In this document: positions 4,289 to 34,599 of the stretch, one piece after another
How positions within the stretch are numbered: position 1 is the stretch's first letter
Layout: each line of letters opens with the position of its first letter
Origin: Bacteroidota bacterium
GTDB taxonomy: Bacteria; Bacteroidota; Bacteroidia; Cytophagales; Cyclobacteriaceae
Reading direction: 5' to 3'
Length of the DNA stretch: 64,000 nucleotides
Assembly (NCBI GenBank): GCA_018266435.1
Contig: JAFEAL010000005.1
Span: forward strand, 418,725 to 482,724
The notes under the pieces: generated by a model
The model's input: only the letters and a program-made list of their open reading frames with translations
The model's database searches: none
Told to the model about the DNA's origin: nothing
Made by a program: the position numbers and the translations under genes

Positions 4289-4702
4289 TTATTTTTTACG
4301 AGCTTCTTTAACTTCTTCAGGTGTTATGACTGATTCTTTGTTACCAAACGAGTTGCGAACATAATTCAGTACATCACTTACTTGTTCATCGGTAAAAGCA
4401 AATCCCTCCATTTTTTCATCGTACTCATAACCATTTACTTTCATGGGCCCGGAAGCTCCGTAAAGTACTACCTCGATGGATTTTTTTTTGTTGGCCTTCA
4501 GGTAATCAGATTGGGCCAGTGGAGGGTAAAATCCATCGGTACCTTCGCCTTGCTCCATGTGGCAGGTGAGGCAATGAGTAATGTAAATGTCTTTTCCCCG
4601 CTCGATGCTTTCTTTTAAAGTGAATTTGGTTTTTTGTTGAAAAGAAGAGAGAGATAAGAGCGATACACTTGCAGCTAAGCCAATAAAAATTTTTGTGATC
4701 AT
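4289..4702 (-). CDS. Secreted monohaem c-type cytochrome
   Basis: A 137-residue protein with a signal peptide (about residues 1-21). The haem-binding motif Cys-Leu-Thr-Cys-His lies at residues 44-48 inside 'GKDIYITHCLTCHMEQGEG'. 'FYPPLAQSDYL' follows, and 'MEGFAFTDEQVSDVLNYVRN' includes a likely methionine ligand. This is the layout of small class I cytochromes that carry electrons in the periplasm. It is unlinked to an oxidase here, so its partner is unknown. Confidence 0.85.
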   Translation of the reverse strand: MITKIFIGLAASVSLLSLSSFQQKTKFTLKESIERGKDIYITHCLTCHMEQGEGTDGFYPPLAQSDYLKANKKKSIEVVLYGASGPMKVNGYEYDEKMEGFAFTDEQVSDVLNYVRNSFGNKESVITPEEVKEARKK

Positions 4703-4842: not shown

Positions 4843-5445
4843 TCAAAAATCCGGATCCAGCCACAGCCGGTCTTTCAGTTCTTTCAGCAACGGATTCTTT
4901 TCTGCCAGGAGATCAAATTTTTCTTTGTTGGTATAAGCAATCTTTTTTGTTTCTTCTTTTTGTAAAATGCTTTCCACCTTAATGGTGGAGTTACTCAGGC
5001 GGCTGCGCAGGTGGGCGAGCAAATCCGGAAGGATAGCTTGCAGCAACGGCTCTTCTACCGAGTTGGCCAGTGCTACAGTCACCACTGATCCTTTGATATC
5101 TACCTGGCGGCTTAATAAATGAAACTCAGCTACCTGGTTTTTTCGTGAGTCGGCATAATCGGCCCATGCCTTGCGAAGTTGTTCATCTGTAAGCGGTCTT
5201 ACCGGCTGTGGCTCATCCAGAGGTGTGATGCCTGCAACTGCCAGTTTTTCTTTTGGTTTTAAAATTGATCCGAGGTTGAGCGTTGACTTAGGGCGTACAG
5301 AAGTTGGGGGAGGTAGTTCGCTACCAACTGATACGGTACTTGGCTGTTGAGATACTCCGGGCGGATCAGGCTTTTTTTCTGTGTTGCCGGGTATTTCTTT
5401 TTTAGCAGGCAACACCGCCAGTGGCGGTTCGGGTTCTAATTCAAT
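4843..5445 (-). CDS. dnaX: dnaX, tau-specific C-terminal part (-1 frame)
   Basis: This reading frame continues dnaX only if the ribosome or the transcript slips by one base in the A10 tract at 5445-5454. It opens without a stop straight from the tract (first codons ATT-GAA-TTA-GAA). It encodes a proline-rich linker, then a folded region ('EQLRKAWADYADSRKNQ', 'LLQAILPDLLAHLRSRLSNSTIKVE') and the ending 'LAEKNPLLKELKDRLWLDPDF', which resembles the C-terminus of Bacteroidota tau. An internal GTG at 5415 could start a separate 190-residue protein, but no promoter or ribosome site stands out. With the shift, DnaX would be about 565 residues, the usual length in the phylum. Confidence 0.7.
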   Translation of the reverse strand: MELEPEPPLAVLPAKKEIPGNTEKKPDPPGVSQQPSTVSVGSELPPPTSVRPKSTLNLGSILKPKEKLAVAGITPLDEPQPVRPLTDEQLRKAWADYADSRKNQVAEFHLLSRQVDIKGSVVTVALANSVEEPLLQAILPDLLAHLRSRLSNSTIKVESILQKEETKKIAYTNKEKFDLLAEKNPLLKELKDRLWLDPDF

Positions 5446-5461
5446 TTTTTTTTTACTCCTT
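5414..5461 (-). promoter_or_regulatory. Putative dnaX slippage / frameshift site
   Basis: On the minus strand the parts in order are AAGGAG (5461-5456, Shine-Dalgarno-like), A10 (5454-5445), the zero-frame stop TAG (5438-5436), and a stem-loop ACCGCC-ACT-GGCGGT (5428-5414). Stimulatory SD, A-rich slippery tract and downstream hairpin are the elements known from E. coli dnaX; long A tracts also cause transcriptional slippage in Thermus dnaX. The hairpin is 16 nt from the tract, farther than usual. A homopolymer sequencing error (true A11) would give the same picture. Confidence 0.6.
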
Positions 5462-6533
5462 CGTGGGAGTTGCTTTTGATGACGGCATTGACATGAACCA
5501 TTTTCATCAGGGCCAGTTCTACCAGCAGCCGTTGGTTGCGGCTGGCTTTATACTGGATATCACACGTACTGGCCATGTTGAGCCACGAGAGCAGGAGCGA
5601 AGGAGAAGCGCTTTGCGCCTGACTGATGTATTTTTGTTTTACGCTTTCGGGCACTTCCATCAGGGCAACGGTTCGTGCATCTTGCGATACCAGTAAATTG
5701 CGTAAGTGCTCCCCTAAGCCGGTGATGAAATTTTGGCCGTCAAATCCTTTTCGTAAAATCTCATCCAACAATACCAGCGGAGTGACGGTATTTTCGGTGA
5801 GCAGGCCATCAACCATTTTAAAATAATAATCATAGTCGAGGATGTGCAGGTTATTGAGCACATCGCTAAAGGTGACTTTGTGGTTTGAAGAAAAAGTCAC
5901 CATCAGGTCGAAGATGGAAAGCCCATCGCGCAGCGCGCCATCTGCCTTTTGGGCAATGAGGTGCAGGGCTTCGTCTTCTGCTTCAATACCTTCGCGGGTA
6001 GCAATTTTTTTCAGTTGTGTGGCAATATCCGAAACCTGAATGCGGTTGAAATCAAAAATCTGGCAGCGCGAAAGGATGGTGGGTATGACTTTGTGTTTCT
6101 CGGTTGTGGCGAGAATAAATATGGCATACGAGGGCGGCTCTTCTAAGGTCTTTAAAAATGCATTGAAGGCTGCATTGGAGAGCATGTGCACTTCATCAAT
6201 AATATAGACTTTGAATTTTCCGAATTGCGGAGGGTAGCGCACCTGGTCAATCAGGTTGCGAATGTCTTCCACTGAATTGTTGGAAGCGGCATCGAGCTCA
6301 AAGATATTGAGTGAGTTGGCTTCGGCCTTTTCTTCAAAGCCGTTGATCATTCTGGCTACAATACGCGCACAGGTAGTTTTGCCCACTCCGCGCGGCCCGC
6401 AAAAAAGTAAAGCCTGGGCCAGCTTGTTGTTATCGATGGCATTTTTTAGCGTGGTGGTGATGTGCTCTTGCCCCACCACTTCGTCAAAGCCGAGTGGCCG
6501 GTATTTCCGGGCCGAAACAACAAAATTATCCAT
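5436..6533 (-). CDS. dnaX: DNA polymerase III subunit gamma/tau (clamp-loader ATPase)
   Basis: 365 residues from the ATG at 6533, starting 'MDNFVVSARKYRPLGFDEVVGQ'. A Walker A motif (GPRGVGKTT) lies near residue 47, then 'FELDAASNNSVEDIRNLIDQVR', the DExH-like 'IIDEVHMLS', the arginine-finger motif 'LSRCQIF' and the domain III region. The ATPase core of the clamp loader is therefore complete. The four-cysteine zinc module normally found between Walker A and 'ELDAASNN' is absent, which I believe is usual in Bacteroidota. In the zero frame the protein stops three codons after the A10 tract, giving a gamma-like product. An ATG nine bases earlier (6542) falls inside the -7 promoter box and is unlikely to be used. 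Confidence 0.93.
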   Translation of the reverse strand: MDNFVVSARKYRPLGFDEVVGQEHITTTLKNAIDNNKLAQALLFCGPRGVGKTTCARIVARMINGFEEKAEANSLNIFELDAASNNSVEDIRNLIDQVRYPPQFGKFKVYIIDEVHMLSNAAFNAFLKTLEEPPSYAIFILATTEKHKVIPTILSRCQIFDFNRIQVSDIATQLKKIATREGIEAEDEALHLIAQKADGALRDGLSIFDLMVTFSSNHKVTFSDVLNNLHILDYDYYFKMVDGLLTENTVTPLVLLDEILRKGFDGQNFITGLGEHLRNLLVSQDARTVALMEVPESVKQKYISQAQSASPSLLLSWLNMASTCDIQYKASRNQRLLVELALMKMVHVNAVIKSNSHEGVKKKLN

Positions 6534-33072: not shown

Positions 33073-34599
33073 ATGCCAGAGCAAATCCTCATCCTCGATT
33101 TTGGTTCACAGTTTACCCAGCTAATCGCGCGAAGGGTGCGTGAACTCAATGTTTACTGCGAAATTCATCCGTACAACCACATTCCCGAAATCGGGAAAAA
33201 TACCAAGGGAATCATTCTTTCAGGCAGCCCCTGCTCTGTGCGCGAAACCAATGCGCCTGATGTGGACTTAAATCAATTTGGAAACCTGCCCATACTTGGA
33301 GTGTGTTATGGAGCACAACTCATTGCCCACAAAAAAGGAGGGCATGTAACTCCTTCGCAAGTGCGCGAATACGGCCGCGCCAAACTGACCGAGGTTGATC
33401 AGCACAATGAATTGTTCAAAGAAATTTCGCTCGACTCACAAGTGTGGATGTCACATGCCGACACCATCACCTCTGTGCCTGATACTTTTGAAATTACCGC
33501 CAGCACGCCACTGGTTAAAATTGCTGCCTATAAACTGAAGAGTGAAAAAATATACGGCATCCAGTTTCACCCGGAAGTAACGCACACCCTGGAAGGAAAA
33601 AATTTATTGCGAAACTTTGTAGTACACATTTGCAGTTGCTCGCAAGATTGGACCCCCGATCAGTTTGTAGAAACGACTATTGTTGATTTGAAAAAAAAAC
33701 TGGGAAATGACAAAGTGGTCATGGCTCTTTCGGGCGGAGTAGATTCTACGGTGGCCGCGACACTCATTCACAATGCCATCGGCAAAAACCTGTACTGCAT
33801 TTTTGTTGATAACGGCTTGCTGCGCAAAAACGAATTTGAGCAAGTGCTGGAATCTTATCAGGGCATGGGCTTGAACATTAAAGGAGTAGATGCCCGTCAA
33901 AAATTTTACGATGCATTGAGCGGGTTGAACGACCCCGAAGCCAAGCGCAAAGCCATCGGCAAAACCTTTATTGATGTGTTTGATGAAGAGGCACACCGGA
34001 TAGCAGATGTAAAATGGTTGGGGCAGGGCACCATCTACCCCGATGTGATTGAATCCGTTTCGGTGAAGGGCCCATCGGCCACCATCAAGTCACACCACAA
34101 CGTGGGGGGCTTGCCGGCCAAAATGAAAATGAAAGTAGTGGAGCCGCTCAATACATTGTTCAAAGATGAAGTGCGCCAGGTAGGAAAATCATTGCGCGTA
34201 GATGAAGACATTTTAAAAAGACACCCATTTCCAGGCCCTGGGTTAGGTATCCGCATTTTGGGCGAAATCTCTCCCGAAAAAATAAAAATACTACAGGCAG
34301 CCGATCACATTTTTATCAGTGCGCTGCATAAGCATCAACTCTATCACAAGGTATGGCAGGCTGGTGCCATATTGTTGCCAATCCACTCGGTGGGGGTAAT
34401 GGGCGATGAGCGCACCTATGAGCAGGTGGTGGCACTGCGTGCTGTAGTAAGCGTGGATGGCATGACGGCAGACTGGAGCCACCTGCCCCACGAGTTTTTA
34501 AGCGAGGTGTCGTCTGAGATCATCAATCATGTAAAAGGGATCAACCGGGTGGTGTATGACATCAGCTCTAAACCTCCGGCTACAATAGAATGGGAATGA
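33073..34599 (+). CDS. guaA: GMP synthase (glutamine-hydrolysing)
   Basis: 508 residues from the ATG at 33073, which directly precedes the conserved '[20 protein letters not shown]'. The class I amidotransferase domain has Cys78 in 'GVCYGAQ' and the His-Pro-Glu in 'QFHPEVTH'. The ATP pyrophosphatase domain has the P-loop '[15 protein letters not shown]', and the C-terminal dimerisation domain has '[10 protein letters not shown]', '[16 protein letters not shown]' and the ending '[12 protein letters not shown]'. It converts XMP to GMP with glutamine and ATP. The reading frame is open back to 33028, but that stretch contains the promoter. The stop overlaps the next gene. Confidence 0.98.

Follow-up and report, generated by a model that had tools for sequence, protein, structure and literature searches.

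A conserved A10 tract divides dnaX between gamma and tau frames in a member of the Bacteroidota and is a probable site of transcriptional slippage

Results

The gamma and tau parts of dnaX meet at an A10 tract

We analysed a 64,000-nucleotide stretch of DNA from a member of the Cyclobacteriaceae (contig JAFEAL010000005.1), hereafter the window, whose minus strand carries a dnaX gene divided between two reading frames (Table 1). At the frame junction the gene reads GAAGGAGT-A10-TTG AAT TAG, which in the zero frame gives GTA AAA AAA AAA TTG AAT TAG, with TAG as the third codon past the A10 run, so that gamma would end in KKKLN. This reading of the minus strand at 5436-5454 bears out the initial annotation, which had placed a zero-frame TAG three codons after the tract. 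It had also described a -1 frame open from the tract into a tau C-terminus, and we found 200 open codons in that frame and a tail that matches the NCBIfam model PRK14971; were the transcript to gain one A, the tau product would be about 563 amino acids long. An immediate stop in the +1 frame can be added to that description. Two features of Thermus-type slippage sites, an A tract of at least nine (here A10, 5445-5454) and near stops in all non-tau registers (TAG at 5436-5438, TGA at 5441-5443), are both found at the junction, as is the layout of two-ORF dnaX genes, in which a gamma ORF and a -1-frame tau tail meet at a poly-A run that is often A10.

Table 1. Features of the dnaX locus, in window coordinates
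Feature	Position	Strand	Basis or remark
dnaX gamma frame, 365 aa + stop TAG	5436..6533	-	AAA+ ATPase core, lid, domain III
A10 slippery tract (candidate), phase xxA AAA AAA AAA	5445..5454	-	T10 on + strand
Zero-frame stop TAG closing gamma	5436..5438	-	sequence
+1-frame stop TGA directly past tract	5441..5443	-	would end third-register products as gamma-like
Tau tail, -1 frame, 200 codons from tract to stop 4843-4845	4843..5444	-	open frame
Predicted folded C-terminal tau domain, alpha/beta	4864..5187	-	AlphaFold2
AAGGAG, possible stimulator, weakly supported	5456..5461	-	1 nt before tract
6-bp GC hairpin downstream of tract, weakly supported	5414..5428	-	sequence/fold

The tract at 5445-5454 is the only A or T run of at least ten in the whole window, in which there are six runs of nine. 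A9 runs that read KKK occur in other open frames at 4481-4489, within a cytochrome-like ORF (4289-4702), and at 33691-33699, where the frame is open across the 69 nt inspected; these are possible negative controls for slippage. Since A9 also occurs in other genes of the window, a run of that length does not by itself demonstrate a programmed site.

The two frames encode a DnaX core and a tau extension

The gamma half contains all the parts expected of DnaX, namely the clamp-loader AAA+ core, the lid and domain III, with Pfam matches to DNA_pol3_delta2 (4.2e-35), DNAX_ATPase_lid (9.9e-13) and DNA_pol3_gamma3 (6.7e-6) and NCBIfam matches to dnaX_nterm (1.2e-112) and PRK14971 (5.5e-188, under the curated cut-off of that model, with half the protein as query). 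A cysteine-rich zinc module occurs in other DnaX proteins; the gamma core of the window seemingly lacks it (6276-6356, minus strand), and this short form is the majority among 10 aligned family members.

The tail in the -1 frame matches positions 488-612 of PRK14971 (E 4.2e-19), the same model as the gamma half. As judged from this match, the -1-frame ORF is the tau C-terminal extension, with a putative role in binding polymerase alpha or the helicase. AlphaFold2 predicts its C-terminal domain with a mean pLDDT of 88.2 and a pTM of 0.64. Foldseek returned no matches to the predicted domain at E <= 0.001; the comparison with DnaA domain I gave E 0.059 and TMt 0.64, and any resemblance of the model to DnaA domain I or DciA is weak and not significant. 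A PDB sequence search with the tail gave nothing up to E 1, and one with a profile of the tail gave nine weak matches (E 0.05-0.9), including DnaA, PolC and several unrelated proteins.

Tract length is conserved more than reading frame across Bacteroidota

We assembled 408 distinct Bacteroidota dnaX loci from genomes of the same genus, family, order, class and phylum and from named genomes. The genus sample comprised 62 genomes, 58 with a match, of which 55 loci were read and three others were cut by contig ends. The family sample comprised 60 of the 182 matches outside the genus, to which the order search added three; at this level single-frame genes were over-sampled on purpose, which inflates the share of that arrangement in the family. 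All 86 matches from 88 genomes of the order were used, with 95 of 97 matches from the class, 35 of 44 from other classes of the phylum, and the best 80 of a longer list of named genomes. As the tract we took an A run of at least eight in the region from 45 nt upstream to 330 nt downstream of the end of the gamma core, and tau was placed with an HMM profile seeded by the longest open frame of 108 genus and family loci, a choice that could favour long frames. The counts exclude 11 duplicates, 20 loci in which a tract is present but no tau was placed by the HMM, and one locus (L194) whose tau frame is not open from the tract; one locus with an N beside its tract (L069) was entered as A8. All counts below come from related loci and are hence not independent.

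A tract was present in 356 of the 408 loci. The 52 without one include three truncated, uninformative loci: L410 and L415, where the region is cut on the wrong side, and L185, which ends 79 nt past the core. The run is absent from all five named Bacteroidaceae loci, from the only Prevotellaceae locus sampled and from isolated loci in other families. Tau could be placed by HMM in 336 of the loci that have a tract, and in 335 of these its frame continues without a stop for 100 codons or more beyond the tract. Of these 335 scored loci, 167 have a zero-frame tau (hereafter the mirror arrangement, in which both parts share one frame; Dyadobacter sp. CY343, L121, is a tau-first example), 160 have the -1-frame tau seen in the window, and eight have a +1-frame tau. 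The length of the run varied far less: A10 was found in 275 (82%), A9 in 32, A11 in 24, A8 in three and A12 in one, and runs of exactly ten are found in each of the three codon phases and with each of the three placements of tau. Tract length is thus conserved more than frame. At least A9 is present in 332 of the 335 scored genes, as against background in the same loci, where the longest A run reaches nine in three of 335 gamma cores (about 1 kb) and, when 375 nt are taken from 30 nt past the tract, in 10 of 335 such stretches; the A tract at this site therefore exceeds chance.

The arrangement of the window also occurs in a family from another class of the phylum (f80), which we take to be Chlorobiaceae-like. 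Thirteen of its loci were read and 11 were informative, with A10 in 10 and A9 in one; when the longest open frame was taken as tau, it lay in the -1 frame in nine of the 11 and in the zero frame in one, and the remaining one was cut.

Some loci without a tract exhibit other junctions. Two from uncultured Bacteroidales (L173:2599 and L192:2599) have an in-frame TAG as the fifth codon past the gamma core, followed by tau in the same frame; the peptide after the stop, IARSPQA, is common to both, with nucleotide changes at third positions only. This suggests stop-codon readthrough as another possible route to tau. A search of 395 Bacteroidia genomes that allowed at most two mismatches did not find this pattern. 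In a Bacteroidales MAG (L160, around 2650), tau is +1 relative to gamma across a junction without an A tract, which may be an error or another recoding site.

Stops close both of the other frames

Both non-tau frames are closed within 10 codons in 94.9% of the 335 loci, compared with 26.4% at control positions 25-130 codons downstream, and in 25 single-frame genes without a tract the other frames close after a median of 35 codons. Among the 160 genes with the arrangement of the window, the zero frame stops within five codons in 98.1%, and the third frame after a median of one codon, compared with nine in the control; for the mirror arrangement the third-frame medians are four and 11. We also resampled synonymous codons of the tau reading frame. 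Stops within five codons were observed at a frequency of 0.98 in the zero frame and 0.87 in the third frame of the window arrangement, compared with 0.50 and 0.69 after resampling, and the corresponding pairs for the mirror arrangement were 0.95 against 0.65 and 0.72 against 0.39. The non-tau stops exceed what the tau amino acids impose. We rely on these effect sizes, not on the very small P values, because the latter treat related genes as independent.

The arrangement has changed repeatedly on the dnaX tree

Labels for the three arrangements were placed on a FastTree phylogeny of 406 gamma cores, 333 of them labelled, as two of the 335 scored loci are missing from the tree. The labels require at least 45 changes on the uncollapsed tree, and 43, 36 and 23 after collapsing branches under 70, 90 and 95 support, respectively. 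Twenty shuffles of the labels, on the uncollapsed tree only, gave 117 changes on average and at least 111. The distribution of frames suggests that dnaX has repeatedly switched between gamma-first and tau-first organisation while the slippage site stayed, with at least 23-45 changes depending on branch support. Some of the eight +1 cases and some of the flips could be homopolymer errors of draft assemblies.

Transcriptional slippage and ribosomal frameshifting

On the basis of these sequence patterns, we propose, with a probability of roughly three in four (0.77), that dnaX yields two clamp-loader subunits from one template through transcriptional slippage at A10. RNA polymerase would stutter on the tract and give transcripts that differ in their number of A residues. 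Those with 10 A, or in the third register (9 or 12 A), would meet a stop within three codons and yield gamma, and those with 11 or 8 A would be joined to the -1-frame tail and yield tau. The frames, the stops and the conservation of the A run are read directly from DNA, and from them we infer the slippage in RNA, the production of both proteins and their ratio. In the reading of the initial annotation, gamma is the zero-frame product and tau depends on slippage, opposite to the order in E. coli and Thermus; 50 of 53 scored genus loci that are alike in this respect support it.

The same two products might arise if ribosomes slipped back one base on AAA-AAA, a -1 programmed frameshift like that of E. 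coli dnaX with the products reversed, assisted by the AAGGAG upstream and the hairpin downstream. We consider this unlikely, though it is the strongest of the alternatives. An in-frame A_AAA_AAA heptamer is available within the tract in every codon phase, including that of the window, where the A_AAA_AAG heptamer is absent. Both putative stimulators, which the initial annotation had pointed out, are present in the window; their proposed role is only weakly upheld. Stimulators of the E. coli type that resemble Shine-Dalgarno (SD) sequences are spaced about 10 nt upstream, and the AAGGAG of the window is separated from the tract by 1 nt. A 60-nt stretch that includes the hairpin has a folding z of -0.78, and 51 of 200 shuffles fold at least as well. 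SD-like motifs occur before the tract at a raw rate of 42-51% in the genus, compared with 2-7% upstream and 13% in the downstream linker. This enrichment looked strong, but synonymous-codon resampling indicates that it is mostly coding: within the last seven codons before the tract, 51% of 53 genus loci have such a motif and 44% would be expected from the amino acids, and in the other two sets the observed and resampled fractions are 0.35/0.29 and 0.41/0.30, which leaves an excess of 6-11 points. Folding after the tract is also above control, by a small margin in energy (mean z of -0.91 against -0.31 in the genus, and -0.57 against -0.15 and -0.63 against -0.27 in the other sets), and GC-rich stems of at least 5 bp follow the tract in 7 of 53 genus loci, compared with 1.5% of controls. 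Given the residual SD-like motifs, stems and folding, a mixed mechanism with a ribosomal contribution at the same tract is possible.

One further locus of the same genus (L078, around 1096 on the gene strand) has its long run replaced by A7 and then GAAG, which creates an in-frame A_AAA_AAG with tau still in the -1 frame and points to possible ribosomal shifting at that locus. A reversed candidate with E. coli-like signals, in Chlorobium phaeobacteroides, is also mentioned by Atkins et al. 2016 (PMC5009743).

Three aspects of the survey weigh against the ribosomal alternative. A -1 ribosomal shift never enters the third frame, yet this frame is closed as well, and by more stops than the amino acids require. 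Ten A residues are kept in every codon phase where seven would suffice; we would not expect this of a ribosomal site, since the heptamer needs seven bases. Lastly, eight genes need a +1 register, and in 167 the zero frame already encodes tau. A near-constant length combined with varying frame and phase is the pattern expected from selection on polymerase slippage. Because A10 is found whatever the phase or frame, and because a frame unreachable by a -1 shift is closed, transcriptional slippage of the Thermus type appears to fit better than ribosomal frameshifting of the E. coli type.

Relatives share the split junction

Homopolymers of 10 are prone to errors, and the initial annotation had named, as the main alternative, a one-base error in an ordinary single-frame dnaX, in which A11 would fuse the frames. 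Of the 55 genus loci read, 53 were scored, the exceptions being L078, which lacks a long run, and one without a scored tau. The split frame with tau at -1 is common to 50 of the 53 (48 with A10, and two with A11 in which the frame relation is unchanged), including the nearest relative (L004, 93% identity), whose A10 and split are identical. The remaining three are two loci with a zero-frame tau (one with A9, one with A8 beside an N) and one with A9 and a +1-frame tau, whose assembly consists of about 810 contigs. With 48 of 53 genus loci showing A10 and a -1 tau, and the -1 arrangement recurring in 160 of the 335 scored loci and in named strains such as Flavobacterium denitrificans (DSM 15936, L180), F. 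quisquiliarum and Chryseobacterium lathyri, an error is very unlikely, and the observation of a dnaX split by A10 is confirmed. The search among relatives for a single uninterrupted frame did find some (two of 53 in the genus, 167 of 335 overall), but these keep an A run of at least eight and close stops in the other two frames, and so look like the mirror arrangement and not like the intact original of a misread copy.

The two frames might instead be two independent genes, one for gamma and one for a tau-tail protein translated by re-initiation past the gamma stop, and the GTG at 5413-5415 is a possible start for a tail ORF of 190 aa. This is highly improbable, as an ATG in the tau frame lies within 30 nt of the gamma stop in none of the 160 genes with the window arrangement, and ATG, GTG or TTG in 13 of 160, and as both parts are in one frame in the 167 of 335 mirror genes. 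Least credible of all is a decaying or pseudogenised tail with only gamma made, which would account for the stop codon and nothing else: the tail is conserved in frame (NCBIfam 4.2e-19), has a confident predicted fold (pLDDT 88.2) and belongs to a tau frame with 100 or more open codons past the tract in 335 of 336 loci.

Discussion

We return to transcriptional slippage as the preferred reading and to its place among known systems. The reversed, gamma-first organisation is not new. In a GeneTack cluster that spans 12 genera, Antonov et al. 2013 (PMC3711429) describe 17 two-ORF dnaX genes that depend on recoding for tau. Poly-A occurs in 12 of the 17, nine of them with A10, and transcriptional realignment is the mechanism that the authors suggest; they name Chloroherpeton (A9) and two species of Chlorobium (A8 and A7). 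The dnaX of the window is of this type as described there, in that tau needs recoding, lies in the -1 frame and is preceded by poly-A. What goes beyond that set is a different gene, the 408 Bacteroidota loci, the three tau registers, the closure of the third frame and the repeated changes of arrangement. None of the titles and abstract openings that we searched mentions a Bacteroidota dnaX that changes frame repeatedly; as the search covered openly readable papers, this is no proof that such changes are unpublished.

The dnaX of Thermus thermophilus, according to PMC1088944 and PMC5009743, undergoes transcriptional slippage on A9 with near stops in the other frames, and slipped and unslipped RNAs give the two products. 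The window shares with it a late homopolymeric A tract and near stops in both other frames, but differs in that the template frame encodes gamma and the tract is A10, whereas in Thermus the template frame encodes tau, slippage gives gamma and the tract is A9. E. coli dnaX, for which PMC5009743 describes a -1 ribosomal frameshift at A_AAA_AAG, likewise makes two products with a common N-terminus by a late frame change; in the window, by contrast, there is no A_AAA_AAG, the products are reversed, the third frame is closed, the SD-like motif adjoins the tract and the stem-loop is weak. In Shigella flexneri mxiE, slippage at a run of U is required for the longer product (PMC1088944). The two overlapping ORFs of mxiE, like those of the window, would be united only in slipped transcripts; unlike dnaX, mxiE is an unrelated transcription activator gene with a U run.

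A broader proposal, on which we are evenly divided, is that A10 in Bacteroidota is a frame-agnostic slippage cassette. The polymerase would randomise the register, so that it hardly matters which template frame encodes tau; the arrangement could then flip, as it may have done dozens of times, while a length of about 10 and both stops are kept, and it would be the polymerase, not the ribosome, that sets the gamma:tau ratio.

Annotation can easily mistake genes of this kind for pseudogenes or for two ORFs, though the replicase presumably needs tau. They also constitute a natural experiment, in which one replication gene with one conserved A run occurs in three frame arrangements with many switches between them. 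This makes it testable how polymerase slippage may set the composition of the clamp loader, and why some lineages are without the run.
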